Source: Prevotella sp. (GTDB lineage: Bacteria; Bacteroidota; Bacteroidia; Bacteroidales; Bacteroidaceae). From it: a stretch of 64,000 bases of DNA. The DNA lies in NCBI GenBank assembly GCA_017619755.1, contig JAFZRU010000008.1:30095-94094 (forward strand), in the 5' to 3' direction. Position 1 is the stretch's first letter, and every line of letters begins with the position of its first letter. The notes under the pieces are model-generated. The model was not told where the DNA came from. It worked only from the letters and a program-made list of their open reading frames with translations, and did not search any database. The position numbers and the translations under genes were made by a program. Shown here one piece after another: positions 2 through 61,286 of the stretch.

Positions 2-1405
2 GCCGAGGACGTGATTTACCCACAGATACTTGCAGACTTTATTTCTGCCAAGAATCTCATGAAGCCAGAAAGAGCCAATGGTTCAGGTCATGCTGACAAG
101 TTCTGTGCCGAGGCATTCATTGCCCGTGCTTGGATGTTCTGGGCCGGCTTCTATAAGAAAGCTGGTGAGCTCGCCAACGCTGATGCTACCATGAACCTTG
201 TGAACGCCGCTGGTGAGCCTATCACTCAGGAGGGCCTTAATGTCACTTCCATTTCCAAGGCAGATGTCGTAGCTGGTCTTCAAGACATCTATTCCAATGG
301 CGGTTACAAGCTTTGCGAGGATTTCCGCTCACTCTGGCAATACTCCAACAGCTACCTTTGGGACGAGGCACACGACAACGCAGATGGCACAGGCAACCTT
401 GAAGGCACCCATGCATACGCTTTCATCGCTGACATGAAGCGTGAGAACTGCTTCGACCAGCCTGGTATGGGCAACGGCAACACCGAGGAGCTTTTCCAGA
501 TTCAGTTTATGAACGCATCCGATTGGGGCATTGGTGGTACATACAACAATCCCCGTATGTATTCCAACTACCTTTCCTGCTTCTGGGGTCTTCGTAATGG
601 TGCCACCAATGATAATGGTAGGCGTGACAAAACCTATCCGTTCAACCAAGGTTGGGGTCAGGGAACTCCTTCTTGCAACATTTGGGATGATTGGACAGAC
701 GCTGAGAGAGCTGGTGGTTACACGGACATGCGTAAACTCGCTACTCTGATTGACCTCGACAATGAGCTTGAATCCTATACTTATGAGAAGGATGACAATG
801 AGGAGTCTGGCTATGCTGTCAAGAAGTATGCCGATGTCAACCTCGACGCTTGCGCAGCCGACAACGATTCATGGTGGTCAAAAGCTGGAGGTGATAGCTA
901 TACCAGCTCACTGAACAACAAGCAGCAGGGCGACCACTTCGAGGACTACTACCTGATGCGTTATGCTGACGTTCTGCTCATGCTGACCGAGCTTACAGGA
1001 AATGCTTCTTTCATGAACCAGGTTCAGAAGCGTGCCGGTGTTCCTGAGACGCCATATTCTTGGAAGGCACTTCAGGACGAGCGTCGTTGGGAATTTGCTT
1101 TGGAGGGACTTCGTTTCAACGACATGCGTCGCTGGTCTGGCAAAGACTCTGGAACGAATTCATACGCTGCTCAAGCCCTCCAGAAGCAGAAAGGCAAGCA
1201 GGTTGTATGCTATGGCCAGAAGAGTGCCAAGCGTTCTTTGGAACACATGACATCTGCAGGTTGGGCCAAGCGTTACGCTGACACCAATGGTTTCCTCCCC
1301 AAGCCTCAAGCTCAGATGACTCTGATGAACAACAGGATGAAGCAGAACCCAGGATGGGATGAAAATACTCCTGCTGAAGAGTGGACATATAAAGTTCTTT
1401 ATTAA
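2..1405 (+). CDS. SusD/RagB-like nutrient-binding outer-membrane lipoprotein (5' end outside window)
   Basis: The reading frame is open to the left edge, so the N-terminus, including the lipoprotein signal, is missing; 467 residues are visible. SusD proteins are surface lipoproteins that cap a SusC TonB-dependent transporter and bind glycans. The typical late SusD signature is near the C-terminus: DERRWEFALEGLRFNDMRRW, followed by a Pro-rich end (GFLPKPQAQ). An earlier helical stretch with FCAEAFIARAWMFWAGFYK matches the TPR-like part, where SusD proteins usually have A.a.RA..y. The upstream SusC partner would lie just outside the window. A lipoprotein gene follows 20 bp downstream, so the two are probably co-transcribed. 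The family call is firm; the ligand is unknown. Confidence 0.88.
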   Translation, partial: AEDVIYPQILADFISAKNLMKPERANGSGHADKFCAEAFIARAWMFWAGFYKKAGELANADATMNLVNAAGEPITQEGLNVTSISKADVVAGLQDIYSNGGYKLCEDFRSLWQYSNSYLWDEAHDNADGTGNLEGTHAYAFIADMKRENCFDQPGMGNGNTEELFQIQFMNASDWGIGGTYNNPRMYSNYLSCFWGLRNGATNDNGRRDKTYPFNQGWGQGTPSCNIWDDWTDAERAGGYTDMRKLATLIDLDNELESYTYEKDDNEESGYAVKKYADVNLDACAADNDSWWSKAGGDSYTSSLNNKQQGDHFEDYYLMRYADVLLMLTELTGNASFMNQVQKRAGVPETPYSWKALQDERRWEFALEGLRFNDMRRWSGKDSGTNSYAAQALQKQKGKQVVCYGQKSAKRSLEHMTSAGWAKRYADTNGFLPKPQAQMTLMNNRMKQNPGWDENTPAEEWTYKVLY

Positions 1406-1425: not shown

Positions 1426-2160
1426 ATGAAAAAGATATTATTGCTTATTGCCACAGTATTCGTTTTCGCTGGTTGCGACCCTACTCATGAGGATATCAGC
1501 AATGGTGGCCACATCACTGTTGATGAACTCAAGGCGAAATCCAGTGTCACTGTTGACAAGGCTGCGGACGGCCAGAATGGCAACGTGGTCACTTGTTCTA
1601 CCTCAGCCCCCGTCAATGCCAAGTGGAGCATTGGTGGCAAGGATATCATTGGCAATTATGCTTGGAAGAAGATGAAGCTTGGTGATCATGTCGTCGTGCT
1701 AACTGCTATTTGCCCCGACGGCACCGAGCTTAAAGCTGAATACCCTATCACCTGCAGCGTCGTTACCAACGCTCTCGAGAAGTTCTACATCTATGGCGAC
1801 CCTTCCAAGCCTGAAGAGGTTCCCTTCCAGCCAGGTGCTTGGGATGCAGCAGCCATGCGTTTCAGCTCCACTGAAGGCGCCCATCTGCCCACCATTCCCG
1901 ATGATGTCTATTTTGGCTTCAAGACTTTGATTTTTGACGTCTCAGATGTTACTGACGACTTTGATTTGAAGGTCATGAACGGCTGGTGGAGTAACACCTA
2001 TTACGATCATGTGAAGTGGGTTTCAGGTTTGAATGAGCTTCAGATTACTGAGACCATGGCCAAGGAGTGCGCCAAGGGTAACGGTGGCGAAGGCCGCGAC
2101 CTCGACCTCATGCTGTACAGCGGCTCCATGACGCTCAATTCTGTTTACTATGAGGAATAA
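1426..2160 (+). CDS. Small surface lipoprotein with Ig/PKD-like fold, SusD-associated
   Basis: This 244-residue protein starts with a type II signal peptide (MKKILLLIATVFVFAGC, lipobox Cys17), so it should be a lipoprotein, probably surface-exposed as its neighbours are. Residues about 30-105 alternate in a beta-rich pattern (VTVDKAADGQNGNVVTCS, APVNAKWSIGGK, GDHVVVLTAICPDGTEL) resembling a PKD/Ig-like domain. The second half (KFYIYGDPSKPEE to the end) is also beta-rich and Trp/Tyr-rich (MNGWWSNTYYDHVKWV), as in small glycan-binding lipoproteins encoded behind SusD (SusE/SusF or SGBP position). No enzyme motif is visible. It sits 20 bp after the SusD-like gene and just before a strong terminator, so it is the last gene of that operon. 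The binding role is inferred from position and composition. Confidence 0.7.
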   Translation: MKKILLLIATVFVFAGCDPTHEDISNGGHITVDELKAKSSVTVDKAADGQNGNVVTCSTSAPVNAKWSIGGKDIIGNYAWKKMKLGDHVVVLTAICPDGTELKAEYPITCSVVTNALEKFYIYGDPSKPEEVPFQPGAWDAAAMRFSSTEGAHLPTIPDDVYFGFKTLIFDVSDVTDDFDLKVMNGWWSNTYYDHVKWVSGLNELQITETMAKECAKGNGGEGRDLDLMLYSGSMTLNSVYYEE

Positions 2161-2382: not shown

Positions 2383-3966
2383 ATGAGGACCAACCAGCGC
2401 AAGTATCCAATAGGAGTACAGACCTTTGAAAAGATAATCAAAGGAGGATTTGTTTATGTGGACAAAACCGATTTGATGTGGAAGATGACAAAGGTGAGCA
2501 ATTATGTTTTCCTTAGCCGCCCCCGCCGCTTCGGAAAGTCGCTGTTATCATCCACTCTCCATTCATTTTTTGCCGGACAAAAGGAGTTTTTTGAGGGACT
2601 GAAGGTGATGCAGTTGGAGCAGGAATGGAAGGAGTATCCTGTCATCCATTTGGACTTGAGCATGGCCAAAGGCAAGGAGTCAGCCGACGAACTTCAGCGG
2701 ACGTTGATGCTGATGCTGTCACGATGTCCATATTTCGATGGAAATGATTTTGAGAAGACACCAGGTGAACGATTGACAGGTATGATTCAGCGTGCATATC
2801 ATCAGACCCAACGTCAGGTAGCGGTCATTATTGACGAATACGATGCACCTTTGCTCGAAGTGCTCCATGAGGAGGAGAATCTGCCTACATTCCGCAAGGT
2901 GATGCAGGAGTTCTATGTGCCGCTCAAGGCCTGCGACCCCTATATCAAGTTCTGCTTCATTACAGGTATCACGAAATTCTCCCAATTAAGCATCTTTTCC
3001 ACCATCAACAACCTGAAAAACCTCTCCATGCGCCCTGACTTTTCTGCAATCTGCGGCATTACGGAAGAGGAAGTGAAGACTGTCTTTGCTGAGGACATCC
3101 AAAGGATGGCAAGAAAATATGAATGCACACCCGAGGAGATGTTTCTTAAGATCAAGAACAGGTATGACGGCTATCACTTCGCAAAGGAGTCGCCCGATAT
3201 TTACAACCCTTTTAGTCTGCTCAATGCTTTCGATGACTGTGAGCTAAATAGCAGTTGGTTCGCCTCGGCCACACCCTCCTATCTTATCCAGCAGATGAAG
3301 CATTTCCGAACAGACATTACCTCTTTGGATAATATGGAAGAGCCAGCAGATGCTTTCGACATTCCTACGGAGGCCATGACCACAGCCCTTCCTTTACTCT
3401 ACCAGAGCGGCTATCTGACCATCAAGAGCTATGACCGCGAGACGGAGATGTACACACTCTCCATCCCCAATCAGGAGGTGCGCATAGGTTTTACCAAGGG
3501 GTTGTTGCCTACTTATACAGGAATAGAGGTTGGCTATACGCAAAAAGGCTTTGCCCTGAGATTCTGGCAAGCTCTGAGAAAGAATGACTTAGAATTAGCC
3601 TTGCAAGAGATGAAGTCTTTCCTCGCCGCCGTACCCTATGTAGAGGGTTTCAAAAAGAAACTGGAGGAGGCCGCCACGGCAGAGGGGTTCTATGAGTACA
3701 CCTTTTGGCTCATCTTCAACATGCTCAACGTCTATACCCGCACGCAAGTCAAGTGTGCCGGAGGCAGAACGGACATAGTGGTATGGATGCCCGATACCAT
3801 CTACGTATTGGAGCTAAAGGTTAATGGTACGGCAAAAGAGGCTCTCCATCAAATCAACACAAAAGGCTACGCCACACCATACGCTACTGATGGACGTCGT
3901 GTGGTAAAGGCCGGCATTCGTTTCAATATAGATTTCCGTACTATTGATGATTGGATAATAGAATGA
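2383..3966 (+). CDS. AAA-ATPase-like protein with C-terminal PD-(D/E)XK nuclease-fold domain
   Basis: The 527-residue protein has the layout of the Bacteroidota AAA-ATPase_like/DUF1703 family. The N-terminal marker YPIGVQTFEKII..GFVYVDKT leads into a P-loop (FLSRPRRFGKSLL, residues 43-55). A Walker B-like VIIDEYDAPL follows at about 148-157. At the C-terminus, D464 and the E477-L-K479 pair in strands RTDIVV and IYVLELKV give the D...ExK core of a PD-(D/E)XK nuclease. The protein has no signal peptide, so it is cytoplasmic. Members are often multicopy in Bacteroidota and their function is not established; a nucleic-acid or defence role is only suggested by the nuclease core. Its stop codon overlaps the next start (ATGA), which suggests translational coupling to the membrane-protein gene. 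Confidence 0.9.
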   Translation: MRTNQRKYPIGVQTFEKIIKGGFVYVDKTDLMWKMTKVSNYVFLSRPRRFGKSLLSSTLHSFFAGQKEFFEGLKVMQLEQEWKEYPVIHLDLSMAKGKESADELQRTLMLMLSRCPYFDGNDFEKTPGERLTGMIQRAYHQTQRQVAVIIDEYDAPLLEVLHEEENLPTFRKVMQEFYVPLKACDPYIKFCFITGITKFSQLSIFSTINNLKNLSMRPDFSAICGITEEEVKTVFAEDIQRMARKYECTPEEMFLKIKNRYDGYHFAKESPDIYNPFSLLNAFDDCELNSSWFASATPSYLIQQMKHFRTDITSLDNMEEPADAFDIPTEAMTTALPLLYQSGYLTIKSYDRETEMYTLSIPNQEVRIGFTKGLLPTYTGIEVGYTQKGFALRFWQALRKNDLELALQEMKSFLAAVPYVEGFKKKLEEAATAEGFYEYTFWLIFNMLNVYTRTQVKCAGGRTDIVVWMPDTIYVLELKVNGTAKEALHQINTKGYATPYATDGRRVVKAGIRFNIDFRTIDDWIIE

Positions 3967-5750
3967 AAAACAAAAGCAAAGCACCCAGTGTCCTCCTCTA
4001 TGTAAGTGTGTTGGTTTTCATTGCATTTGTAGCATATATACTACACATCAACCAGGAGGTACTCTACACGGCACACGACCGTTCCGAATTCATTTACGGA
4101 GCCCCCTTCTTCCATACGCTCCTGTCAAAACCCTTTGGTTTGATGCGGTATGTAGGCGCGTGGCTCACACAGCTCTTTTGTCGTCCAGCCATAGGTGCAG
4201 GTGTGCTGGTGATCATCTGGGCACTCATCTACTTTGTAGGTGCCAAGGCATTCCGTTTACAGGGAAGCCTCTCCGCACTGATGCTCTTGCCTATAGCCTG
4301 CTTGCTCACCTCCATTGTCGATTTGGGCTATTGGGTTTATATCTCAACCATCAGAGGCTATTGGTTCTCACAGTCGGTGGGTTATCTCCTCATGCTGTTG
4401 CTTTTGTGGGCGGCACGTTGCACCCCCCGCAAATGGCATCTTGCCTGGTGTCTGCTTGCCGCATGCCTCTATCCTGTGCTTGGATGGTTTGCTTTGCTTT
4501 TCATTATCTGCCTCGCGCTCACAGAGAAACCCACCTGGCGCGAGTGTGTAGGCATCGTCCTGCTCGTGTTTACCGCCGGCATCTGGCATACGCAGGCCTA
4601 TTCCTATCTGAGAGCCAACGATGTCACGCTGGCCGGCTTCCCCCGCTTCGAAACCCCCATGGACTCAAGCCCGCATCTCTCCATCCCGTTCTGGATACTT
4701 GCTGCTGTCTCCGTGCTCATTCCTATTTGTGGCCAATACCTGGCTCGACCAAAATTCAAGTGGCTTGTGCCGGTGCTGTGTGCCATTGCAGGCATCTTCA
4801 TCACCACGTCGTTTATGTTCCATGACAAGAACTACATCGACGAAATGCGGATGGTGCGCCTTGCTTCCGACGACAACTGGCAGGAAGTCCTCAAAATGGC
4901 AGAAGCGAACAAGAAGCCAACGAGCACGATGGTATTTCTCAAGAATATAGCCCTGATGAACGAAGGCGGCTTATTAGACCGTTCGTTCAAATTGGGCAAC
5001 GATGCCGCCAACCTCCACAACCCCGACACCTTGCACGTCACCCTTTTGGACATCGCTTCGCCTTTGGTATATTACAACTACGGCATGATGAATGAAGCCA
5101 TCCGTCTTAATTTCGAGAATGCTATCCAAGCCGGTTTCTCGCCCTTCTACCTGAAGATGCTTACCCGCTGCGCCTTGGCTGTCGGCGACAAGAAGTTGGT
5201 GGAACGCTACACCACCCTACTCCATCATCTCCCATTCTACGGCGACTGGCAACCGGCACCGGTCACAGAAAAAATCAAGGAACTTCAAACATGCTATCCC
5301 GATGAGATCACCGGCGTTGAGAACAGCGAGAGCTATCTTGTCAATGGCATCAGTCTATGGTACGAATCCGATAGCAAAGTGGCTTCCGAACAGGCGTTGT
5401 TCTATTCCATGCTGCGTTGCGACTCTCGTCGTTTCTGGGCATCGTTGAAAAACTATGTGAAATTGCATCTTGACGAAGAATTTCCCCTGCATGCGCAGGA
5501 AGCCTATATCCTGTTCATGGACAAGTCGCCGGAAGAAAAGCGGATGATGCTCCCCGTGGAGCAGTCCGTTTTCGACCGTTACAAACAGTTCTGGGCTACC
5601 TTGGAAAGTCTGGCACAGCCAGGCATGACCCTTCAAAAAGTAGGTGAGGCCATGCATAAAGAATATGGAGACACCTACTGGTGGTACAACCTCTTCGGAA
5701 GAAAACCTCTTCAATTATCAGGAAAGATTGGAAACGACATTCATGCGTAA
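3963..5750 (+). CDS. Polytopic membrane protein with C-terminal helical repeats (DUF6057-like), copy 1
   Basis: The ATG at 3963 overlaps the preceding stop (ATGA); an in-frame TTG lies 12 bp earlier but is less likely. The 595-residue product has about ten hydrophobic segments in residues 9-290, beginning SVLLYVSVLVFIAFVAYIL. Its second half is soluble and helical (TPR-like), predicted periplasmic or cytoplasmic with no catalytic motif visible. Features shared with the two paralogues at 7278 and 57953 are the segment ahead of TM2-3 (GAWLTQLF / ..YFTQHF / ..FCTQFF), 'YGMMNEAIR'-type and 'FYGDW'-type motifs in the helical half, and an aromatic C-terminus (TYWWYNLFG). From memory this matches DUF6057, a Bacteroidota family of unknown function. 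It is always followed here by a CxxCH lipoprotein gene, pointing to a two-component envelope unit. Confidence 0.82.
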   Translation: MKNKSKAPSVLLYVSVLVFIAFVAYILHINQEVLYTAHDRSEFIYGAPFFHTLLSKPFGLMRYVGAWLTQLFCRPAIGAGVLVIIWALIYFVGAKAFRLQGSLSALMLLPIACLLTSIVDLGYWVYISTIRGYWFSQSVGYLLMLLLLWAARCTPRKWHLAWCLLAACLYPVLGWFALLFIICLALTEKPTWRECVGIVLLVFTAGIWHTQAYSYLRANDVTLAGFPRFETPMDSSPHLSIPFWILAAVSVLIPICGQYLARPKFKWLVPVLCAIAGIFITTSFMFHDKNYIDEMRMVRLASDDNWQEVLKMAEANKKPTSTMVFLKNIALMNEGGLLDRSFKLGNDAANLHNPDTLHVTLLDIASPLVYYNYGMMNEAIRLNFENAIQAGFSPFYLKMLTRCALAVGDKKLVERYTTLLHHLPFYGDWQPAPVTEKIKELQTCYPDEITGVENSESYLVNGISLWYESDSKVASEQALFYSMLRCDSRRFWASLKNYVKLHLDEEFPLHAQEAYILFMDKSPEEKRMMLPVEQSVFDRYKQFWATLESLAQPGMTLQKVGEAMHKEYGDTYWWYNLFGRKPLQLSGKIGNDIHA

Positions 5751-7272
5751 GAAAACAATGAAAAGACATACCCTCCCCTATTTGCAACTTTTGGCCGTTG
5801 CCATGTTGCTCTTGTCCTCGTGTGTGCATCACCCCGACATCCCTTCTTCGTCCAAAGAGGCCAAGTGCCTGCCAGCCATCTTCCCTGACTATTGCGGCGT
5901 CACCGTGCCGTACAACATCGCTCCCCTCAATTTCATGCTTGCGGATAGCACGTACAATGAATGTGTGGCACGTATCACCACCCCCGACGGCCAGCAGCAG
6001 ACCTACGGCAGTGGCGTGAAGGTGCAGATACCCGAGTCGGAATGGCATGACATGCTCGATGCCTCGAAAGGCAAGAGCATAAAGGTAGAGGTATGGGGGC
6101 AGAAAGATGGCGAATGGCTATCGTTCAACCCGTTTGAGATACATGTTGCCGAAGAACCCATTGACGAATATGTGTCGTATCGCCTCATCGAGCCATCGTA
6201 CGTGGCTTGGACCTTCATGGAGATAGCCCAGCGCCATCTCACCACATTTGAAGAGACACAAATCTTCAACAATGAGATCACGATGAATGACAAGACCATC
6301 GGCCAGTGCATCAACTGTCACAGCTATCAGAACTACAAGACCGACAACATGCTCTTCCACGTGCGCCTCTCCAATGCCGGCACCGTCATTGTGAACGATG
6401 GCAAGGTTTCGAGAGTCAATATGAAGCGCGACTATACCATTTCAGGTGGTGTTTATCCTGCATGGCATCCCACCGCCAAACTGATAGCCTTCTCCACCAA
6501 TAAGACAAGGCAGGCATTCCATACTGTCAATCCCAACAAAATCGAGGTTTACGATTTGGAAAGCGACATGATTCTCTACGACGTAGAGACCGACTCTGTG
6601 AGCATCGTCAGCAATGATTCCACGCTTTTGGAGGTGTATCCCACCTGGTCGCCCGATGGCAAATACCTCTATTACTGCAAGTCCGTACCACTTCCTGAAG
6701 AGATGCGCGACAAGGACGTCCGATCCACCTACTCGAAAATACAATACAACCTCTATCGCCGTTCATTTGATTTGGCAACACATGGCTTCGGCGAAGAGGA
6801 GCTTGTCTATGATGCAGCCTCTGCCGACAAGAGCGTCACGCTGCCACGCATCAGCCCCGATGGCCGCTACCTGCTCTTTGCCCTTGGCCAGTATGGCTGT
6901 TTCCATAGCAGGCACCATGATGCAGACATTGTTTGCATCCCTATGAACCAGTATTCCGGCACTGCCCTCACCGCAGAAACCTCTTCGGCCATCGACCTCA
7001 CCCCTCTCAACAGCGAAGGCTATTCTGACAGCTACCCCTCCTGGTCGAGCAACGGTCATTGGATCATGCTTGCCAGTCGTCGTGACGATGACAACTACAG
7101 CCGTGTCTATTTCTCCTATTTCAACAACGGGAAAGTAGGAAAGGCCTTCCTCATGCCGCAGGAAGACCCAGAAGACAACCTCTTCCTTCTGAAGAGCTAC
7201 AACCGTCCGGAGTTCATGGTGGAACCTGTCAAAATCAGCGTTGAAGAGTTTAGTAGGGTGTTTGACAAATAG
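5743..7272 (+). CDS. Lipoprotein with CxxCH haem-c motif and PD40/TolB-like propeller repeats, copy 1
   Basis: An ATG at 5743 overlaps the previous gene by 8 bp; an in-frame ATG at 5758 (MKRHTLPYLQLLAVAMLLLSSC) would align better with the MKK/MKR starts of the paralogues. Either start gives a lipobox (LSSC). A conserved N-terminal block (IFPDYCGVTVPYNIAPLNF) is followed by CINCHSY with C189, C192 and H193 (numbered from 5743), a cytochrome c-type haem-attachment motif in an exported protein. Next comes a possible second ligand region (MLFHVR). PD40-type strands follow: YPAWHPTAKLIAFSTN, YPTWSPDGKYLYY, LPRISPDGRYLLF and SYPSWSSNGHWIMLASRR. A motif RHHDAD near the fourth blade is shared by the paralogues (WHHDAD/WHHEAD). 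Function is unknown; haem binding is predicted, not shown. Confidence 0.85.
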   Translation: MRKKTMKRHTLPYLQLLAVAMLLLSSCVHHPDIPSSSKEAKCLPAIFPDYCGVTVPYNIAPLNFMLADSTYNECVARITTPDGQQQTYGSGVKVQIPESEWHDMLDASKGKSIKVEVWGQKDGEWLSFNPFEIHVAEEPIDEYVSYRLIEPSYVAWTFMEIAQRHLTTFEETQIFNNEITMNDKTIGQCINCHSYQNYKTDNMLFHVRLSNAGTVIVNDGKVSRVNMKRDYTISGGVYPAWHPTAKLIAFSTNKTRQAFHTVNPNKIEVYDLESDMILYDVETDSVSIVSNDSTLLEVYPTWSPDGKYLYYCKSVPLPEEMRDKDVRSTYSKIQYNLYRRSFDLATHGFGEEELVYDAASADKSVTLPRISPDGRYLLFALGQYGCFHSRHHDADIVCIPMNQYSGTALTAETSSAIDLTPLNSEGYSDSYPSWSSNGHWIMLASRRDDDNYSRVYFSYFNNGKVGKAFLMPQEDPEDNLFLLKSYNRPEFMVEPVKISVEEFSRVFDK

Positions 7273-7277
7273 TTCCA

Positions 7278-8810
7278 ATGAAGATTATTCGTTCTATCTG
7301 CACTCTCCTTTTCGGTGTGGCCGTTGTCCTCTTTTTCGGACTGGCCTATCCGCATCATCTGCATTATCAGGAGCAGTATCAACTATTCCTCTTCGACAGC
7401 ACCTACTGGTGGGAGGTTGTCAAGTTATCAGGTGGCATAGCCGACCTTTTAGGACGCTTCTGCACACAGTTTTTCCTATTTGCCTGGGTGGGTGCCCTTA
7501 TCATTGGGGCAATGCTCACGGCAGTGCAGCTCCAGACGCTCCAGTTGGTCAATTCATGGACGAGCCAAGCGGCAAAGCCGAGTGAGGGATGGCTCTATGG
7601 CCTGAGCTTTGTGCCTTCGTTTCTGCTCTGGCTCTTCCTGCTCGACGAGAATGCGCTATTGGGTGGTGTCTGGGCTGTCCTCCTCACACTTCATGCGTCT
7701 TGGCTATTCTCCAAACTACCCAAAGGCAGGGTACAACGTGTTCTGCTCGTTGCCGCCATTCCCATCCTCTATTGGATGGTGGGTCCTGTCTGCATCGTAT
7801 TCTTTTTCCTGCAGGCTCTACGCCCTCAACGCTCTGCATGGTATTGCGGAGTGTTCGTACTTTTGGCTGCCATGCCCATCCTGCTGTCATACTATCTCCC
7901 GGTACCAGCCGACAAGCTATGGTACGGCATCCATTACCATCGCTATCCAACAGAAATACCAGTTCTGCTTTGGGCCGCTGCCTTTTCCATCTTCGTCCTC
8001 GCACTCATTATCCGTGTCTTGACCCATTGGAACAAGGCTCTTCAAACCTCTTTCCTCATTCCTCTTTTCTCATTCCTATCGGTGTTTATTGGCATGGGGA
8101 GTCTCGTCTGGACAAGCAGCAATTTCAAAGCAGAAAAGGTGATGCAATATGATTTCATGGCCTGCCACCAGCAATGGAACCGCATCCTTGAGACCATCAA
8201 CGCCGAAAAGCCCAACAACCAAATCGGTGTCACGGTGCAAAACCTTGCCTTGGCCATGCACGGTCTGCTCGGCGACCACCTGTTCGACTATCACCAAAAT
8301 GGCCTCCATGGACTTCTGCCCGATGTTGAGAGCGATGCGACCAGTCCCATGCCAACAGCCGAGGCATTCTATCAGTTGGGCATGATCAATGTCGCCCAGC
8401 GAACGGTATTCGAGGCCCAGGAAGCCATCCTTGATTTCCAGAAAAGCGCCCGATGCTACAAGCGCTTGGCACAGACCAATCTCATCAACGGCAGTTACGA
8501 AGTGGCTCGCAAATATCTCACGGCGCTGCAAAAAACCCTTTTCTATCGTGGATGGGCCAATGAAACCCTGTCGCTGTTGGGCGACGAAAAGGCGATAGCC
8601 AAGCACCCCGAATACGGACATCTGCGTCAATTTGCCTACGACAAAGACTTTTATTTCAGCGACCATGTACCCCCTGAAATGCTCGAAAGACTCTACTATG
8701 GCAATACTGACAACCGCCTTGCATACGAATATCTGAGAGCCTATTACATGCTGACGGGCGACCGCGAAAGCTATGCCAAGTTACTACTTCACACCTCCAC
8801 CAAGCAATGA
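7278..8810 (+). CDS. Polytopic membrane protein with C-terminal helical repeats (DUF6057-like), copy 2
   Basis: This 510-residue paralogue of the 3963 gene starts 5 bp after the preceding stop. It has a hydrophobic N-terminal half (first segment SICTLLFGVAVVLFFGLAY, then about eight more) and a helical soluble half from about residue 270. The shared landmarks are present: GRFCTQFFLFAWVGAL in the second segment, FYQLGMINVAQR, and FYRGWANETLSLL where copies 1 and 3 have FYGDW. It is about 85-100 residues shorter than the other two copies, mostly through shorter loops in the membrane half. Its ATGA overlap with the following lipoprotein gene is the tightest of the three pairs. No catalytic motif is visible. 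The copy arose by tandem duplication of the pair, followed by strong divergence. Confidence 0.8.
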   Translation: MKIIRSICTLLFGVAVVLFFGLAYPHHLHYQEQYQLFLFDSTYWWEVVKLSGGIADLLGRFCTQFFLFAWVGALIIGAMLTAVQLQTLQLVNSWTSQAAKPSEGWLYGLSFVPSFLLWLFLLDENALLGGVWAVLLTLHASWLFSKLPKGRVQRVLLVAAIPILYWMVGPVCIVFFFLQALRPQRSAWYCGVFVLLAAMPILLSYYLPVPADKLWYGIHYHRYPTEIPVLLWAAAFSIFVLALIIRVLTHWNKALQTSFLIPLFSFLSVFIGMGSLVWTSSNFKAEKVMQYDFMACHQQWNRILETINAEKPNNQIGVTVQNLALAMHGLLGDHLFDYHQNGLHGLLPDVESDATSPMPTAEAFYQLGMINVAQRTVFEAQEAILDFQKSARCYKRLAQTNLINGSYEVARKYLTALQKTLFYRGWANETLSLLGDEKAIAKHPEYGHLRQFAYDKDFYFSDHVPPEMLERLYYGNTDNRLAYEYLRAYYMLTGDRESYAKLLLHTSTKQ

Positions 8811-10288
8811 AAAAAACCATCTATACACTGCTGTCCGTTCTGCTGTTTTCTTCATGCACCGAGACTGTCAGCGATGCCAAGCAGGAAAGTGTTCTGCCAC
8901 CTATCTACCCCGACTACGTCGGTGTCACCATCCCCGTGAACATTGCTCCTCTCTGCTTTTGCATGGCAGACGAGGGGGTGGAGCGAATTGATGCCGTCAT
9001 CACAGACCGCCACGGAAACGACCTTCACTGCCAAGGTGAGAAATCGCTTGATTTCGACCTTTCCGACTGGCATGCACTGCTTGACCAGAACCGTGGAGAC
9101 TCGCTCAGCGTCACCGTGTCGGCCAAGCATGCTGATGGTTGGCACACCTACCGTCCCTTCTCCATCTACGTCAGCCCTGACAGCATCGACTACGGCCTCT
9201 GTTATCGTCTGATCGAGCCAGGATACGAGGTGTGGAGCAAAATGGGCATTTACGAGCGCGACCTTTCCTCGTTTGACGAGCGTGCGTTGATAGAGAACAC
9301 ACAGTTCGAGGGGTGCGTCAACTGCCATAGTTTCAACCGTGGCAACCCTGACGACATGAGCCTGCACATCCGCGGCCCGCATGGTGCCACGCTGCTGCGC
9401 CACTCTACCTCCAAGTCACTCCTACCCCTCACCGCTTACAACACCAAGACCGACCAAACGCTCGGCTTCTGTGTCTATCCCTACTGGCATCCTTCGGGCC
9501 ACTACATCGCCTATTCCACCAACGCCACGAGTCAGCTGTTCCACAGTGCCGACCCCAACCGTATCGAGGTCTTTGACACCGCCTCCGACCTTCAAGTCTA
9601 TGACGTTGAAAATAATGAGTTACTGCTTTCGCCCCTTCTCAAGCAAGACTCCATCTATGAAACCTTTCCCGTTTTCTCCGCCGATGGCCGTTCGATCTAT
9701 TTCTGCGCAGCCCGCGCCCTTCCGAAGGACAGCCATCAACTCGACTCCGTCCGATATAATCTCTGCCGCATCGATTTCGACCCAGCAACAGGTCGCTTTG
9801 GCAGCCAAATAGAAACCATTGTCGATGCAGAGTCCCAACGCAAGTCGGTCTCCTTCCCCCGCCCCTCCTACGATGGCCGTTTCCTTTGCTACACCCTCTC
9901 CGACTACGGACAGTTCAGCATCTGGCATCATGAGGCCGACCTCTATCTCCTCGACCTTGCCACAGGAGAGAGCCGCCCCATGTCCGAGGCCAATTCTAAA
10001 GATACGGAATCGTTCCACAACTGGAGCACCAACTCTCGCTGGTTGGTGTTTAGTTCCCGTCGTGACGACGGTCTCTTCACGCGCCCCTATTTCTGTCACG
10101 TCGATGCCAAGGGGGTTGTCAGCAAGGCCTTCATGCTACCGCAGCAAAATCCTCGCCGCTTCTATCGCGAGCGTTTCCTTTCCTTCAACGTGCCAGAATT
10201 CATCATCCGCCCCACCCGCTTCGACAGTCACAAAGCCAGCCGGCTCATCAACGATGAATACCGCAAGGACTTTGGGGTGAGGAAATAA
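8807..10288 (+). CDS. Lipoprotein with CxxCH haem-c motif and PD40/TolB-like propeller repeats, copy 2
   Basis: The 493-residue protein opens with MKKTIYTLLSVLLFSSC (lipobox Cys17). It then carries the family block IYPDYVGVTIPVNIAPL and the haem-attachment motif CVNCHSF (C170, C173, H174), followed by MSLHIR, the counterpart of MLFHVR in copy 1. Propeller-type repeats include YPYWHPSGHYIAYSTN, FPVFSADGRSIYFC, SFPRPSYDGRFLCY and HNWSTNSRWLVFSSRR. The paralogue motif WHHEAD is present, with Glu in place of the first Asp. It ends in a conserved stretch (SFNVPEFI). Its start overlaps the membrane-protein stop by 4 bp. It is expected in the periplasm or outer membrane, where cytochrome c maturation could act. 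Its biological role is unknown. Confidence 0.83.
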   Translation: MKKTIYTLLSVLLFSSCTETVSDAKQESVLPPIYPDYVGVTIPVNIAPLCFCMADEGVERIDAVITDRHGNDLHCQGEKSLDFDLSDWHALLDQNRGDSLSVTVSAKHADGWHTYRPFSIYVSPDSIDYGLCYRLIEPGYEVWSKMGIYERDLSSFDERALIENTQFEGCVNCHSFNRGNPDDMSLHIRGPHGATLLRHSTSKSLLPLTAYNTKTDQTLGFCVYPYWHPSGHYIAYSTNATSQLFHSADPNRIEVFDTASDLQVYDVENNELLLSPLLKQDSIYETFPVFSADGRSIYFCAARALPKDSHQLDSVRYNLCRIDFDPATGRFGSQIETIVDAESQRKSVSFPRPSYDGRFLCYTLSDYGQFSIWHHEADLYLLDLATGESRPMSEANSKDTESFHNWSTNSRWLVFSSRRDDGLFTRPYFCHVDAKGVVSKAFMLPQQNPRRFYRERFLSFNVPEFIIRPTRFDSHKASRLINDEYRKDFGVRK

Positions 10289-10738: not shown

Positions 10739-11947
10739 ATGAAAAAACTATTTGTATTGGCTGCCCTCTGCCTAATGGGTATGGCAGCGCAGGCCCAGCA
10801 GAACCTAAGTTGGGGACAAGGCCCACAGGTGGCTTCTCCCGATGTACATGCAGACAACAGTGTGACTTTCAACATTATTGCCCCCGAGGCTCAGAAGGTG
10901 CAGATTACCGGCGACATGTTGCCACCCAAAAAGGTGGAATATCAAGGCAACACCTACGACACCTCAGGCGTGGTTGACCTCGTGAAGAACGACAAAGGTG
11001 TTTGGAGTTATACCACAGAACCCCTGAAGCCCGAGCTATATACCTATAACATGATTGTAGATGGTGTGAAAATCCTTGATCCGCTCAATGTGTACAACAT
11101 CCGCGACATCAACAATCTGTTCAGCGTGCTGCTCATTGGTGGCGACGCACGTACCGATTTATATCAAGTCAACAAGGTGGCTCACGGTACCGTCAGCAAG
11201 GTGTGGTACGAGAGTCCCACAGCAGGACTGACCCGTCGCCTGACGGTATATACCCCCGCAGGCTACGAAACCAGCGGCAAGGAATACCCCGTGTTTTATC
11301 TGCTGCACGGCATCGGTGGCGACGAGAATGCTCGGAGCGAGCTCGGTCGTGCTGCCCAGATTCTCGACAACCTGATAGCCCAAGGGAAGGCCGAGCCCAT
11401 GCTGTTGGTGATGACCAACGGCAACATCTCGCAGGAGGCGTGCCCGGGTGAGACCAGCGAAGGATTTCGCGTGCCAACCATGATGTTGCCCAAGACGATG
11501 GAGGGAAGTTTCGAGACCGCATTCCCCGATGTGGTGAAGTTTATCGAGAAGACCTATCGAGTGAAGAAAGACAAGGCCCACCGCGCCATTGCCGGACTGT
11601 CGATGGGTGGTTTCCACAGCCTCTTCATCAGCATCAACAATCCTGATTTGTTCGGCTACATAGGACTGTTCTCCGCCGCTGTTGACCAGCAGCAGCCCGA
11701 CCCCAACGGTCATCCAGAAATCTACGCCGACCGCAATGCCAAGATTGACGGGTTGTTTGCCAAGAAACCCAACCTCTTCTGGATAGGCATTGGCAAGACC
11801 GACTTCCTCTTCAAGAACAACAGCGACCTGCGCGCCTATCTCGACTCCAAGCACCACAAATACACCTACCTTGAAACCGAAGGAGGTCATATCTGGCGCA
11901 ACTGGCGTATCTATCTTTCAGAATTCACACCCCTATTATTCAAATAA
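10739..11947 (+). CDS. Carbohydrate esterase family 1 (feruloyl/acetyl-xylan esterase type), first copy
   Basis: The 402-residue secreted enzyme has a signal peptide (MKKLFVLAALCLMGMAAQAQ). An N-terminal beta-sandwich of the CBM48/E-set kind spans about residues 25-140 (VTFNIIAPEAQKVQITGD, GVWSYTTEPLKPELYTY). The C-terminal alpha/beta-hydrolase domain has a nucleophile elbow GLSMGG (Ser288), a likely Asp355 (GKTDFLF) and His384 (GGHIWRNW). This layout is typical of CE1 esterases that remove ferulate or acetate from arabinoxylan. In the oxyanion-side loop, HGIGGDENAR has Arg199 where the companion esterase at 14314 has Trp. The gene heads an operon with a GH3 enzyme and a second CE1 esterase. 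Exact substrate is not readable from sequence. Confidence 0.9.
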   Translation: MKKLFVLAALCLMGMAAQAQQNLSWGQGPQVASPDVHADNSVTFNIIAPEAQKVQITGDMLPPKKVEYQGNTYDTSGVVDLVKNDKGVWSYTTEPLKPELYTYNMIVDGVKILDPLNVYNIRDINNLFSVLLIGGDARTDLYQVNKVAHGTVSKVWYESPTAGLTRRLTVYTPAGYETSGKEYPVFYLLHGIGGDENARSELGRAAQILDNLIAQGKAEPMLLVMTNGNISQEACPGETSEGFRVPTMMLPKTMEGSFETAFPDVVKFIEKTYRVKKDKAHRAIAGLSMGGFHSLFISINNPDLFGYIGLFSAAVDQQQPDPNGHPEIYADRNAKIDGLFAKKPNLFWIGIGKTDFLFKNNSDLRAYLDSKHHKYTYLETEGGHIWRNWRIYLSEFTPLLFK

Positions 11948-11952
11948 CGCTT

Positions 11953-14310
11953 ATGAAAAAGACTTTGTTTTATGCCCTCGGTATGGCAGCCCTCCTCATC
12001 GGTTGCGCCCCTACCGACACAGTGAAGAACACCATCAATCAGGAGGACGTGATGAGCAAGCTGTCGCTTGAGGACAAGGCTCACTTCGTGATTGGTACTG
12101 GTATGACAGGCTTCTCCGGCGACGATGCCGTGATAGGCGCCACCAAGAATCTCGTTCCCGGTGCCGCCGGCACCACCTATCCCCTCGATTCATTGGGCAT
12201 CCCCGCCATCGTGCTGGCTGACGGCCCTGCCGGACTGCGCATCGACGCCACCCGCGAGGGAGACTCCGCTACTTACTATTGCACCCATTTCCCCATTGGC
12301 ACCTTGTTGGCCTCGACTTGGAACACCCAATTGATTGGAGAGGTTGGACAGGCCATCGGTGAAGAAGTGAAGGAGTATGGTGCAGACGTGCTGTTAGCTC
12401 CTGCACTGAACATCATGCGCAACCCTCTCTGCGGACGCAACTTCGAGTATTACTCCGAAGACCCTGTGGTGGCTGGAAAGACTGCCGCAGCCTATATCAA
12501 AGGCGTTCAGAAGAACGACGTAGGTACGAGCATCAAGCACTTCGCCGCCAACAACCAAGAGACCAACCGTATGAACACGGATGCCCGCATCTCGCAGCGT
12601 GCGCTACGCGAAATCTACCTGAAAGGCTTTGAGATTGCCATCAAGGAGAGCAAGCCGTGGACGGTGATGACCTCTTACAACTACATCAACGACACGTACA
12701 CCTCCGAAAGCAAGGACTTGGTGGAGACCATCCTGCGCGACGAGTGGGGCTACGAGGGCACCGTGATGACCGACTGGTTTGGTGGCAAGGACGGTGCCAA
12801 ACAGATGTGGGCCGGCAACGACATGCTGCAACCTGGCAAGCAAGAGCAGTTCGACTCCATCGTGGCAGGTGTGAAGAGTGGCAAACTGGCAGAGGCCGAC
12901 CTCGACCGGAGCGTCAGCCGTACATTGAAGCTCGTTGAGAAGAGCCCACGCTACCAAGGCTATCAGTATAGCAACAAGCCCGACTTGAAGGCCCATGCCG
13001 CCGTGACACGCCAGTCTGCTGCCGAGGGCATGGTGCTTATGAAAAATGAGAAGACCCTGCCCTTTGCCGAGAGCATCAAAAATGTTGCCCTCTATGGCAA
13101 CACCTCCTACGACTTCATTGCCGGAGGAACAGGTTCCGGCAACGTCAACCATGCCTACGTGATCTCTCTGCTCGACGGTCTGAAAAATGGCGGCTATGCC
13201 GTCTCTGAAGAACTAAAGACAGCTTACGAGACATATATCGCCGACGCCAAGGAAAAAGCCAAGGAAGACCTTGAGAGACAAGCCAAGAAAGATCCCAAGA
13301 ATGCCATGCTCCTCAGTTTCCTGCCCCAACCGCTGCCAACAGAAAAACTGTTCTCCGCCGACGAACTGACGAAACAAGCCGAGGCTGCCGACATAGCAGT
13401 CATCACGTTCGGACGCCTGTCTGGCGAGTTTGTCGATCGCAAGGTAGCAGACTTCAACCTGAGTGCCTCCGAGCGCCAACTGCTCCAGCAGGTGTGCGAC
13501 GTCTATCACAGAGCCAACAAACAGGTGGTCGTACTTCTGAACATAGGCGGTGTCATCGAGACAGCCACGTGGAAGGACATGCCCGACGCCATTCTCTGTG
13601 CCTGGCAGGCAGGACAGGAGGGTGGCAACAGCGTCGTTGACGTGCTTAGTGGCAAGCAATCGCCCTCTGGCAAGTTCACCATGACATGGCCAGTGAACTT
13701 CACCGACGCCTACTCCTCGAAGAATTTCCCCATCGACGAGAATCCGAGAATCGACATGACCAACCAGGGTCAGAAGGGCAACGTTCGCAACGTTGACTAT
13801 ACCGAATATGAAGAGGACATCTATGTGGGCTACCGTTACTTCGACTCGTTCGACATCCCCGTGAGTTATCCTTTCGGCTATGGTCTGAGTTACACCACTT
13901 TCGAGTATAACGATGCCAAGATTGCCCAGAAAAACGACATCTACGACGTGACCGTCACTATCAAGAACACAGGTTCCCACGAGGGCAAGGAGGTCGTGGA
14001 GCTTTACGTTGCCGCCCCTGACTCGAAGGCTGCCAACAAGCCCGCCAAGGAGTTGAAGGCTTTCGCCAAGACGAAGAATCTGAAGCCGGGCGAGAGCCAG
14101 TCTCTTACACTGAGCGTTACCGCCGACCAGTTGGCTTCCTTCGACGAGGAAGCTTCCGCATGGGTGGTTGCCGAGGGCGAATACCAATTCCTCGTCGCCG
14201 CCTCTGTCCAGGACATCAAGGCCACGCTCACGGCTTCTGTCAAGAACCAGCAGACGAAGGCCCACGACGTGCTGAAGCCCACTGTGAAGCTCAATTTACT
14301 AAAAAGATAA
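11953..14310 (+). CDS. Glycoside hydrolase family 3 beta-glucosidase-type lipoprotein
   Basis: The 785-residue product starts 5 bp after the esterase stop. A lipobox Cys18 (ALLIGC) predicts anchoring to a membrane. The GH3 N-domain shows ADGPAGLRI, the KHFAANNQETNR segment and VMTDWFGG, with Asp274 the predicted nucleophile. The second alpha/beta domain follows (SAAEGMVLMKNEKTLPF, VALYGNTS). The C-terminal Fn3-like domain begins after YPFGYGLSYTTF (about residue 650). A charged helical insertion lies at about 420-460. The sequence style is closest to bacterial beta-glucosidases (BglB type), but GH3 members in xylan loci can be beta-xylosidases or arabinofuranosidases, so specificity stays open. 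It would finish off oligosaccharides released with help from the flanking esterases. Confidence 0.92.
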   Translation: MKKTLFYALGMAALLIGCAPTDTVKNTINQEDVMSKLSLEDKAHFVIGTGMTGFSGDDAVIGATKNLVPGAAGTTYPLDSLGIPAIVLADGPAGLRIDATREGDSATYYCTHFPIGTLLASTWNTQLIGEVGQAIGEEVKEYGADVLLAPALNIMRNPLCGRNFEYYSEDPVVAGKTAAAYIKGVQKNDVGTSIKHFAANNQETNRMNTDARISQRALREIYLKGFEIAIKESKPWTVMTSYNYINDTYTSESKDLVETILRDEWGYEGTVMTDWFGGKDGAKQMWAGNDMLQPGKQEQFDSIVAGVKSGKLAEADLDRSVSRTLKLVEKSPRYQGYQYSNKPDLKAHAAVTRQSAAEGMVLMKNEKTLPFAESIKNVALYGNTSYDFIAGGTGSGNVNHAYVISLLDGLKNGGYAVSEELKTAYETYIADAKEKAKEDLERQAKKDPKNAMLLSFLPQPLPTEKLFSADELTKQAEAADIAVITFGRLSGEFVDRKVADFNLSASERQLLQQVCDVYHRANKQVVVLLNIGGVIETATWKDMPDAILCAWQAGQEGGNSVVDVLSGKQSPSGKFTMTWPVNFTDAYSSKNFPIDENPRIDMTNQGQKGNVRNVDYTEYEEDIYVGYRYFDSFDIPVSYPFGYGLSYTTFEYNDAKIAQKNDIYDVTVTIKNTGSHEGKEVVELYVAAPDSKAANKPAKELKAFAKTKNLKPGESQSLTLSVTADQLASFDEEASAWVVAEGEYQFLVAASVQDIKATLTASVKNQQTKAHDVLKPTVKLNLLKR

Positions 14311-15558
<1,248 letters not shown>

Positions 15559-57952: not shown

Positions 57953-59788
57953 ATGAAAAGACTATTAAAACCCATGGCTCTCTGGCTGGTCACCTTGATT
58001 GCGGTGGCTTCTGCCTTGCTTTTTTATGAAGCCGACCTACTTTGGAAGGTTCAGCAGCACAACGTATTCCTCAACACTTCTTCATTCTTCCATCAGATGA
58101 TGACGGTGCCGGGTGGCATGCTTTCTTATCTATCGGCATACTTCACCCAGCATTTTTACCATCCCTGGGTGGGCGTGATATTGCTCTGCTGCTGGTGGCT
58201 GCTGTTGATGTGGCTGACGAAACGTACGTTCAACATTTCCAACAAATGGACGGTGTTGACGTTGATTCCCGTGGCTATCCTGTTAGTGGCCAACATGGTT
58301 TTGGGTTACTGGGTTTACATCATCAAACTGCCTGGCTATTTCTATGTAGCCACTATTGGAACGACGGCTGCAACGGCCCTGCTATGGGCATACCGAAAAA
58401 TGCCAGAGAAGCCATGGCTTCGTGCCGCTTTCATCGTGCTGGTGACACTTGCAGCCTATCCGCTGATGGGAGTCTATGCGCTGGCTGCCGCCGCGCTCAT
58501 GGCTGTGATGGAGTGGCGTCTTTCCAACCACCCCTCCCCTCTAAGTTCTCGAATCTTAACAAGTGTTGCTGCACTGCTCAGCATCATTTTCATCCCGCTG
58601 TTCTATTATCGTTTCGTTTACTGCGGAACCAACATCATCGACATCTGGCGAACAGCCATTCCTGTCTTTGCCGTTTCTGACAATTACCCCCAATTCTACA
58701 TCCCATACTATGCGCTGGCCGTCTTCTTCCTGTTGATGGCCCTCACCTACCGTAGAGAGCGCGTCAAGAAGGAATCCAAATCCTCTCCATTCATCCAATT
58801 CCTACCCCCGTTCATCATATTCCTCATCATCGGCGGCTCCGTTTATTATTTCTGGTACAAGGATGCCAACTTCCACCATGAACTGAGCATGCAGCGTAGC
58901 GTGGAGCAAGCCGACTGGGAAGGTGTCATCAAGGAAGGAACAAAGCAGGACGGAGAACCCACCAGGGCCATCGTGATGATGCACAACTTGGCACTGAGCC
59001 GATTAGGACGTCAATGCGACGAGATGTATAAATTTCCCAAAGGGTCGAAGAAATACAACACTCCCCTACCAGTCTTCATGTATAACATCGCAGGTCGCAT
59101 GATGCTCTATCAGTATGGTGCCATGAACGAGTGCCACCGTGTGTGTATGGAAGAAGGGGTGGAATACGGTTGGAACGTAGAACAGCTGAAAGACTTGGCC
59201 CGTTGTGCCATCTTCAACAAGGAGGCGCAAACGGCCATGAAATTCCTCGACATCCTCCGACATACCTTTTATTATGGTGATTGGGCCGACCACATGGAGA
59301 AGTTGCTCAACGATCCGAAGCAGTTGGCCAATGACAAAGAAACGGGCCCCATCACCCACATGATGCATTACACAGACAAGTTGAATGCGGTGGAAGGCTA
59401 TGTGGAGAGGTTCCTGATGAACTCGTTGGCACAAGAGGATGCCGACGACCTCTACTTCCAAGAACAAGCCGTCTTGGCCGCCTTATGGACAAGAGACCCC
59501 GACCTCTTCTGGCCCCGCTTCGAACATTATATGGAACTGAACGGCGACAGAAATGTGCCTCGCATTTTCCAAGAGGCCGCATGGCTCTTCGCCAACATGC
59601 AAGGCATGGAGGGACTGGAGGAGTGGGAACTTGAGCCAGGTGTCAAGGAGAGCTTCAACGCTTTCATGCAACAGATGCAGCGATTCAAAAAGGCGCCCAA
59701 TGAAAGCACCAAGAGACAGATGTACCTGTCTTTCAGCAACACCTACTATTTCGAATACTTTTTCTTAAGAGACATTACCTACTATTAA
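57953..59788 (+). CDS. Polytopic membrane protein with C-terminal helical repeats (DUF6057-like), copy 3
   Basis: The start is ATG 57953 (MKRLLKPMALWLVTLIAVAS), because the promoter rules out the longer frame from 57866; 611 residues. About ten membrane segments occupy residues 8-320 (LSAYFTQHFYHPWVGVILLC; NMVLGYWVYIIKLPGY). The helical soluble half carries the family motifs LYQYGAMNECHR and HTFYYGDWADHMEKLL, and an aromatic C-terminus TYYFEYFFLRDITYY. It is closest to copy 1 (shared LGYWVYI). It is followed after 1 bp by a CxxCH lipoprotein gene, repeating the arrangement seen twice at 4-10 kb. No catalytic residues are recognisable. Confidence 0.82.
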   Translation: MKRLLKPMALWLVTLIAVASALLFYEADLLWKVQQHNVFLNTSSFFHQMMTVPGGMLSYLSAYFTQHFYHPWVGVILLCCWWLLLMWLTKRTFNISNKWTVLTLIPVAILLVANMVLGYWVYIIKLPGYFYVATIGTTAATALLWAYRKMPEKPWLRAAFIVLVTLAAYPLMGVYALAAAALMAVMEWRLSNHPSPLSSRILTSVAALLSIIFIPLFYYRFVYCGTNIIDIWRTAIPVFAVSDNYPQFYIPYYALAVFFLLMALTYRRERVKKESKSSPFIQFLPPFIIFLIIGGSVYYFWYKDANFHHELSMQRSVEQADWEGVIKEGTKQDGEPTRAIVMMHNLALSRLGRQCDEMYKFPKGSKKYNTPLPVFMYNIAGRMMLYQYGAMNECHRVCMEEGVEYGWNVEQLKDLARCAIFNKEAQTAMKFLDILRHTFYYGDWADHMEKLLNDPKQLANDKETGPITHMMHYTDKLNAVEGYVERFLMNSLAQEDADDLYFQEQAVLAALWTRDPDLFWPRFEHYMELNGDRNVPRIFQEAAWLFANMQGMEGLEEWELEPGVKESFNAFMQQMQRFKKAPNESTKRQMYLSFSNTYYFEYFFLRDITYY

Positions 59789-59789
59789 T

Positions 59790-61286
59790 ATGAAGAGACT
59801 GCTTTTGTTCACCGCCATGGCCACCCTGTTAGTGGCTTGTGGAAACCAGATACCCCAAAATTTCTGGGAGTCGGACAAACTCCCGAGCATCTATCCCGAC
59901 TACACCAACGTCACGGTGCCAGTCAACATCGCACCGCTGACCTTCCAGATTGACGGAAAGGCTGATGATGTGGTGGCCAGGCTATCGATTGGCGAAGAAG
60001 AGGTCATTTGTGGAGGGCACAAGATACAGCCCGATGCTGACGACTGGAAACGACTGACCGAACTTGCCAAAGGCGACTCCATCAAGGTGGAGGTCTTTGT
60101 GGAGCTTAACGACAGTTGGACGCGTTTCAAGCCATTCAACATTTACGTCTCACCCGATTCCATCGATCCTTACATCAGTTATCGTCTTATTCCGCCTTCG
60201 TATGTCACCTACGAGGAACTGACCATCAACCAACGCTGCTTGGAAAACTACGATGAAAGCGTCATCTATGACAACATGCTCTGCTCCGAGGGGAGCGATG
60301 GACAGTGTATCAACTGCCACAACTACCAGCAATACAACCCTGAAAGGATGCAGTTCCATGCCCGTCAGAACATGGGCGGTACCATCATCGCTTACGATGG
60401 AACTATCAAAAAAATAGGCATGGGGCACGATTCCATCCTTTCTGCCGGGGTCTATCCCACTTGGCATCCCTGGCTCAAACTCATCGTCTATTCCACCAAC
60501 AAGACAGGCCAGATCTTCCATAGCGTCAATCCCAACAAGATCGAGGTGTTCGATTCGGAGAGCGACCTCATTGCCTATAATGTGGAGAAAAACGAAGTGA
60601 CCAATATCGAGAACGACACGACGGAGATGGAGTGCTTCCCCTTCTGGGCTCCCGATGGCAAGACTCTCTATTACTGCAGTGCCCACTTCGAGTACCGCGA
60701 CACGATTGAGAAGGGAGCGGAGTTTACCATGCGGACCCAAGAGGCAAAATACAACCTCTACAAGAAGAGTTTCGACCCCGAAACCATGCAGTTTGGACCA
60801 CGTCAGTTGGTCTTTGCGGCTGATTCCATCGACAAGAGCGCCACTCTGCCCCGCATCTCGCCCGATGGCCGGTTCCTGATGTTCACCCTTGCCCAATATG
60901 GCGTTTTCCACATCTGGCACCACGATGCCGACCTTTGGATGCTGGATTTGAAGACTGGCGAAGTTCGGAACATGGAAGAAATCAACTCACCTGACACGGA
61001 GAGTTATCACTCCTGGTCAAGCAACGGCAAATGGGTGGTGTTCAGCAGTCGCCGCTATGACGGCAACTACACACGTCCGTTCATCGCCCATATCGACAAC
61101 AACGGTCGCGGCAGCAAGCCCTTCGAACTGCCTTGTGCCGATCCCGACAACCATCGTCAAATGCTGAAAAGCTACAACGTCCCCGAGTTGATGCGCGGAC
61201 CTGTCACCATCAAGCCACAACAGTTCGCCGATGCCCTCAAACAAGATCCCACCCCCGTGAAATACGTCCATAAACTTAGTAAATAA
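59790..61286 (+). CDS. Lipoprotein with CxxCH haem-c motif and PD40/TolB-like propeller repeats, copy 3
   Basis: The 498-residue lipoprotein (MKRLLLFTAMATLLVAC, lipobox Cys17) has the family block IYPDYTNVTVPVNIAPLTF and the haem-attachment motif CINCHNY (C173, C176, H177), followed by MQFHAR. The propeller-like repeats are YPTWHPWLKLIVYSTN, FPFWAPDGKTLYYC, LPRISPDGRFLMF and HSWSSNGKWVVFSSRR. The motif WHHDADL is intact. The end KSYNVPELMRGPVTI matches copy 1 closely. All three copies keep the CxxCH, the Met-x-x-His (MLFH/MSLH/MQFH) a short distance after it, and the HHD/EAD motif, marking these as the functionally constrained sites. The role is unknown. Confidence 0.85.
   Translation: MKRLLLFTAMATLLVACGNQIPQNFWESDKLPSIYPDYTNVTVPVNIAPLTFQIDGKADDVVARLSIGEEEVICGGHKIQPDADDWKRLTELAKGDSIKVEVFVELNDSWTRFKPFNIYVSPDSIDPYISYRLIPPSYVTYEELTINQRCLENYDESVIYDNMLCSEGSDGQCINCHNYQQYNPERMQFHARQNMGGTIIAYDGTIKKIGMGHDSILSAGVYPTWHPWLKLIVYSTNKTGQIFHSVNPNKIEVFDSESDLIAYNVEKNEVTNIENDTTEMECFPFWAPDGKTLYYCSAHFEYRDTIEKGAEFTMRTQEAKYNLYKKSFDPETMQFGPRQLVFAADSIDKSATLPRISPDGRFLMFTLAQYGVFHIWHHDADLWMLDLKTGEVRNMEEINSPDTESYHSWSSNGKWVVFSSRRYDGNYTRPFIAHIDNNGRGSKPFELPCADPDNHRQMLKSYNVPELMRGPVTIKPQQFADALKQDPTPVKYVHKLSK

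Follow-up and report, generated by a model that had tools for sequence, protein, structure and literature searches.

Do two proteins encoded side by side three times in one stretch of DNA form a working unit, and what does the cysteine/histidine motif of one of them do? The question is raised by 64,000 nucleotides from Prevotella sp. (assembly GCA_017619755.1, contig JAFZRU010000008.1, positions 30,095 to 94,094 of the forward strand; genome 86% complete), hereafter the window. Its three gene pairs each encode a membrane protein of the family DUF6057 (M) and a lipoprotein with PD40 propeller repeats and a CxNCH motif (L). A preliminary description of the window had read each pair as an envelope unit. 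Residue numbers follow M3 or L3.

The six genes are on the plus strand. M1 (595 amino acids; 3963..5750) and L1 (509; 5743..7272) overlap by 8 bp or, with an in-frame ATG at 5758 as the start of L1, are separated by 7 bp. M2 (510; 7278..8810), which is C-terminally short and matches positions 6-491 of the 569 of its family model, overlaps L2 (493; 8807..10288) by 4 bp, and a 1-bp gap lies between M3 (611; 57953..59788) and L3 (498; 59790..61286). The open reading frames thus confirm the order and spacing first described. The family assignments were confirmed as well: M1, M2 and M3 match DUF6057 (PF19529, an entry with no assigned function; curated cut-off 29.8 bits) with 248, 475 and 325 bits (E 2.6e-73, 5.7e-142 and 1.7e-96), and L1-L3 match PD40. 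A search of the pair proteins against NCBIfam gave no model at or above its own cut-off. By motif search, the cysteine motif is CINCH in L1 (6307..6321), CVNCH in L2 (9314..9328) and CINCH in L3 (60306..60320, residues 173-177). An HH[DE]AD motif follows at 6913..6927 (HHDAD, L1), 9926..9940 (HHEAD, L2) and 60918..60932 (HHDAD, L3); the last contains H377, with which the first histidine of the L1 motif aligns. MxxHxR is also found in all three lipoproteins. The genome of the window holds two further pairs outside the window, so that each of its five M and five L genes is adjacent to a partner.

The M/L pair is carried by some gut and rumen bacteria, with up to seven copies per genome; M and L are found together, in equal numbers, and evolve in step. 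A protein scan of genome contigs with L3 gave 250 relatives, and the best 80 (79 loci) come from records titled Prevotella, Prevotellaceae, Bacteroidaceae or Bacteroidales. Each of the 83 L-type reading frames among these is preceded on its own strand, within 1.5 kb, by an M. Among 392 genomes of the order Bacteroidales, with at most three candidates scored per genome and three weak L matches excluded (G104, G186 and G239; E 1e-25 to 1e-29), strong L and long-type M matches coincide in the same 49, which include the window's own genome; the comparison of the two sets was run on the other 48. In a phylum-wide sample, L was found in two of 295 other genomes. Both are outside the class of the window, and each has a CMNCH motif and an M immediately upstream of L.

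Copy numbers were counted more fully in 48 genomes, namely 42 of the 49 pair genomes (all except G173, G252, G265, G329, G344, G367 and G377), four more of the genus and two with only a short type of M. Up to 33 L candidates were scored per genome, M matches were taken down to about E 2e-14, seven short-type M were set apart and four weak L rows (G096, G251 twice and G315; E 1e-29 to 1e-33) were excluded. The count gave 117 L and 120 long-type M, at one to seven copies per genome. Of the 46 genomes with L, 43 have as many M as L; G134, G287 and G382 each have one M more than L, and two of these three extra M are partial. At least 107 pairs lie within 1 kb, a slight undercount because greedy pairing mis-splits the tandem arrays of G219 and G028. 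As 95 of them run M to L, 10 run L to M and two are on opposite strands, the order is usual, not fixed. Six genomes hold an unlinked L (G065, G088, G137, G310, G318 and G415), and each also holds an unlinked M. M and L stand together in 97 of 99 loci, which were picked for holding L or M (L in most), and the next commonest family in 13. Homologues elsewhere are therefore usually paired, as expected of a unit.

Unpaired DUF6057 proteins were considered as a refutation of the module and rejected, since they are either members of a short branch (about 385 amino acids) or long-type M unlinked from L. Most genomes with an unlinked long-type M also hold an unlinked L, the exceptions being the three with an extra M. 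The short branch is the sole DUF6057 in G371 and G261, the two genomes tested for it, and no L was found in either. In seven of seven loci (L037-L043), inspected by eye, a short DUF6057-like gene follows the end of an apparent GH13 glycogen branching enzyme. The short proteins are possibly a second, glycogen-linked branch without L.

The distances among M and among L are closely matched. Over 112 distinct pairs in M to L order the two matrices correlate with r 0.965, while 1000 shuffles gave at most 0.25. Because shared ancestry inflates such a correlation, paralogues inside genomes were also compared: 48 ordered comparisons, confined to loci with a mapped genome and not independent of each other, gave the true partner a better fit than the paralogous one in 44 cases. 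The gap between the genes has a median of 3 bp and is at most 20 bp in 91 of the 112 pairs. An obligate M/L unit is well supported, and the proposal that the two proteins act together in the envelope gains strong support from co-occurrence, equal copy number and this congruence.

The architecture of both proteins was predicted with a mean confidence (predicted local distance difference test, pLDDT) of about 93. For L the prediction is confident: the L3 model has a small N-terminal domain and a TolB-like six-bladed propeller. For M it is moderate and comprises a GT-C-like membrane core (approximately residues 1-305) and a TPR-like half from about residue 304. The roughly nine membrane helices of the M3 model, together with amphipathic ones, are in fair agreement with the ten or so first proposed, and the helical-repeat half follows them; the GT-C-like core goes beyond what the preliminary description foresaw. 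Glycosyltransferases of the GT-C fold are integral-membrane enzymes with lipid-linked sugars as donors and a catalytic acid in the first periplasmic loop. Fold comparison of the M core returned seven GT-C rows, and an acid is present within residues 26-40 in 71 of 73 M rows, at differing positions. A sequence search of the PDB with M3 alone found no relatives. With an M profile, 54 sequences appeared up to E 10, the best at E 0.0055 (a zinc antiporter) and none a GT-C protein by name.

The location of L was approached through its N-terminus. The lipid-attachment cysteine is present in all 60 members of a diverse L alignment (A2), on which all figures out of 60 are based. Surface lipoproteins of Bacteroidetes are described as carrying the export signal K-(D/E)2 or Q-A-(D/E)2 (PMC5080379). 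Two adjacent acids soon after the cysteine, a loose proxy of this signal, occur in one of 60 L and in six of 15 SusD tails, some of which look misassigned by the simple pattern used; by this measure L probably faces the periplasm. Custom SusC and SusD models found either family in 11 of 27 diverse pair loci, compared with one of 20 arbitrarily placed stretches from twelve genomes (p 0.007). Nineteen further loci, which are short and in most cases hold an M or L with no linked partner, added two cases, giving 13 of 46 in all (p 0.048). In the L3 clade only eight of 79 loci have SusC or SusD, so that the link to glycan uptake concerns only part of the family.

The explanation preferred here, with a probability of roughly 0.55, is that M and L form an obligate periplasmic unit, composed of a GT-C-like/TPR-like protein and a TolB-like lipoprotein with an essential cysteine/histidine site. 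M would place its predicted GT-C-type core in the inner membrane and, by the positive-inside reading, its TPR-like domain in the periplasm. L would be TolB-like in build and held by its lipid, apparently away from the cell surface. Through its TPR-like half M may bind the propeller of L, L may present or gate a substrate for M, and CxNCH and H377 would form an essential cofactor or redox site. The unit would probably serve the handling of envelope glycans or glycoproteins, as part of the family adjoins SusC/SusD genes. Glycosyl transfer by M and haem on L are steps that we infer. A general role of M in O-glycosylation was considered and rejected on distribution. The O-oligosaccharyltransferase of Tannerella forsythia is called unknown in PMC8729774, and M is unlikely to be the general enzyme of this kind for the phylum because the pair occurs in only 49 of the 392 genomes of the order.

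Conservation in L points to the site. The motif persists well beyond the three copies of the window: of 146 distinct complete L, 145 carry CxNCH, as does every member of the diverse alignment (60 of 60). R192 and H377 are kept in all 60, H407 in 59, and H190 and H226 in 58 each. The other motifs first described are present in all three L of the window and are only partly general: the histidine of MxxH is kept in 58 of 60 and its methionine (M187) in 40, while the first histidine of HH[DE]AD is invariant and the second position is histidine in 12. M187 as a conserved haem ligand was rejected on this count. The sole L without CxNCH (L223:3562-4959, minus strand, genome G137) retains 46 of the 60 strongly conserved columns; the 14 that it has lost include C173, C176, H177, H377, H407, R132, E252 and D255. 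This lone variant suggests that the jointly lost residues include some that make one site, and it offers a ready-made natural comparison for the cofactor question. L1 has CINCH and a proline at the H407 column, which weakens H407 as an obligatory ligand and makes H377 the better candidate.

A tentative alternative is that L is a true c-type cytochrome, with haem attached to CxNCH by CcsBA and the iron ligated by H177 and H377 (or H190), and that the unit senses redox state or gas, or carries electrons, for the envelope machinery of glycan use. An exported lipoprotein with so constant a CxNCH, and the one L in which histidines are lost along with it, are consistent with this view. The CcsA/CcmC/CcmF-type cytochrome c assembly family PF01578 is found in 48 of the 49 pair genomes and in 270 of the 343 others (Fisher p 0.0003), so that it is also frequent where the pair is absent; part of the association might reflect the size of the genomes and the lifestyle of their hosts. 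The pair genome without it, G315, has a CLNCH motif and neither PF01578 nor PF05140 detected, which counts against a cytochrome, although in an assembly of about 240 contigs the missing gene may be a gap. In a 60-genome set of relatives, PF01578 occurs in 19 of 23 genomes with long-type M, and the other four (G014, G022, G023 and G046) are 56-81% complete. All 11 long-type M genomes tested for ResB have it. In G412 (L194:9259-17376) the distance from a pair to a ccsBA-type gene is about 1.5 kb, and two genes rich in CxxCH (20 and 12 motifs) are about 7 kb away. In c-type cytochromes the haem motif belongs to a helical turn within the cytochrome domain. The L3 model has no cytochrome fold and places CINCH within the beta strand 172-180 of the propeller, which, in a model without haem, falls short of proof. 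In addition, the methionine is not conserved, and the residue before the second cysteine is asparagine in 60 of 60, so that the constraint on the motif exceeds that of a haem signature. The odds between a covalent haem c attached by CcsBA and a non-haem metal or thiol site are about even. A haem-binding L would be a c-type haem protein with a TolB-like propeller as its scaffold. The genome of the window also has a likely c-type cytochrome locus (L197:3595-8701), where a protein with two CxxCH motifs is encoded just before a ccsBA-type gene.

A second alternative is a trans-envelope tether similar to Tol-Pal, in which a catalytically dead M serves as membrane scaffold for the TolB-like lipoprotein L and the role of CxNCH is structural or metal-binding; the two proteins would hold the inner and outer membranes together, in some lineages near glycan-import complexes. 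The modelled propeller of L shares the fold of TolB. On the other hand, L is lipidated, carries CxNCH and has a DUF6057 partner, and L1-L3 score 30.5, 30.2 and 35.6 bits against the TolB equivalog model, below its cut-off of 343.15. The GT-C rows and the acid of the M core suggest more than a scaffold, and a pair restricted to 49 of the 392 genomes of the order, at up to seven copies, is unlike a general tether. This reading is unlikely.

Quite improbable is a bolder form of the obligate unit, a redox-gated periplasmic glycosylation new to bacteria, in which the GT-C/TPR-like M would need a TolB-like L with haem c, or a different redox cofactor, at CxNCH/His377, and particular SusC/SusD loci would have copies of their own. 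Finally, that the pairing is a by-product of polysaccharide-utilisation islands moving as blocks, with no joint action of M and L, would suit the SusC/SusD genes near 11 of 27 (13 of 46) diverse loci, but it is disfavoured and very improbable given the joint presence in 97 of 99 loci, with the next family at 13, the equal copy number in the six genomes with one unlinked copy of each, and the within-genome congruence.

Returning to the obligate unit, some known systems resemble its parts. The GT-C glycosyltransferases (STT3/PglB/AglB, Pmt4 and AftD) differ from M, whose acid is not at one position and which has a lipoprotein partner. The TMTC-type enzymes of animals combine a GT-C core with TPR on the lumenal side. 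The predicted architecture of M resembles theirs in this, although they are eukaryotic and we know of no propeller partner for them. The hydrazine synthase alpha subunit is described as holding two haems in its middle and C-terminal domains, not in its N-terminal propeller (PMC12758564); that propeller and L are 9% identical. The L partner and the GT-C/TPR-like architecture of DUF6057 were not found in the sources consulted on the family, and literature searches aimed at the pair or its parts, with subscription papers mostly outside them, gave no paper containing 'DUF6057' and none on the pair. For an uncharacterised Pfam family, the analysis adds an obligate partner, a likely architecture and a site that can be tested. 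Should M prove an active GT-C enzyme, gut and rumen bacteria would have a glycosyltransferase family partnered by a lipoprotein.

A defence system was also considered and rejected: in a scan of M1, L1, M3 and L3 the sole match was a type I specificity subunit model with L1 (E 0.011), taken as chance. In the L3 clade, the same-strand gene next after L is of glycoside hydrolase family GH97 in 6 of 45 cases and GH43 in 5 of 45, and more distant genes include GH10 in 5 of 70, each among 25 families listed; because only 25 are listed per count, no enrichment of carbohydrate-active enzymes is claimed.

Around the first two pairs of the window, a SusD-family gene cut by the window start (2..1405, plus strand; PF07980, E 2.3e-18) is preceded in the genome by a SusC-type reading frame of 1083 amino acids and followed by a small lipoprotein-like gene (1426..2160, plus strand) with no Pfam match. 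An AAA-ATPase_like/PDDEXK_9 gene (2383-3966) stands between this operon and M1, whose start it overlaps by 4 bp. Downstream of L2, a GH3 gene is flanked by two related esterases with CBM48-like parts (10739-15558), one of these parts being below the Pfam cut-off. The tandem M-L-M-L quartet at 3963-10288, whose second M is without the C-terminal 70 or so residues, recurs in another genome of the same genus (G020:C47:31752-37966). Blocks of SusD, small lipoprotein, M and L were seen by eye in three other loci too (L195, L198 and L204). There, in three genomes, a lipoprotein-like gene of about 190 amino acids, DUF4369-like by eye, lies just before M (L195:10729-11304, L198:3346-3909 and L204:5366-5956), and its product is a possible third member of some units.
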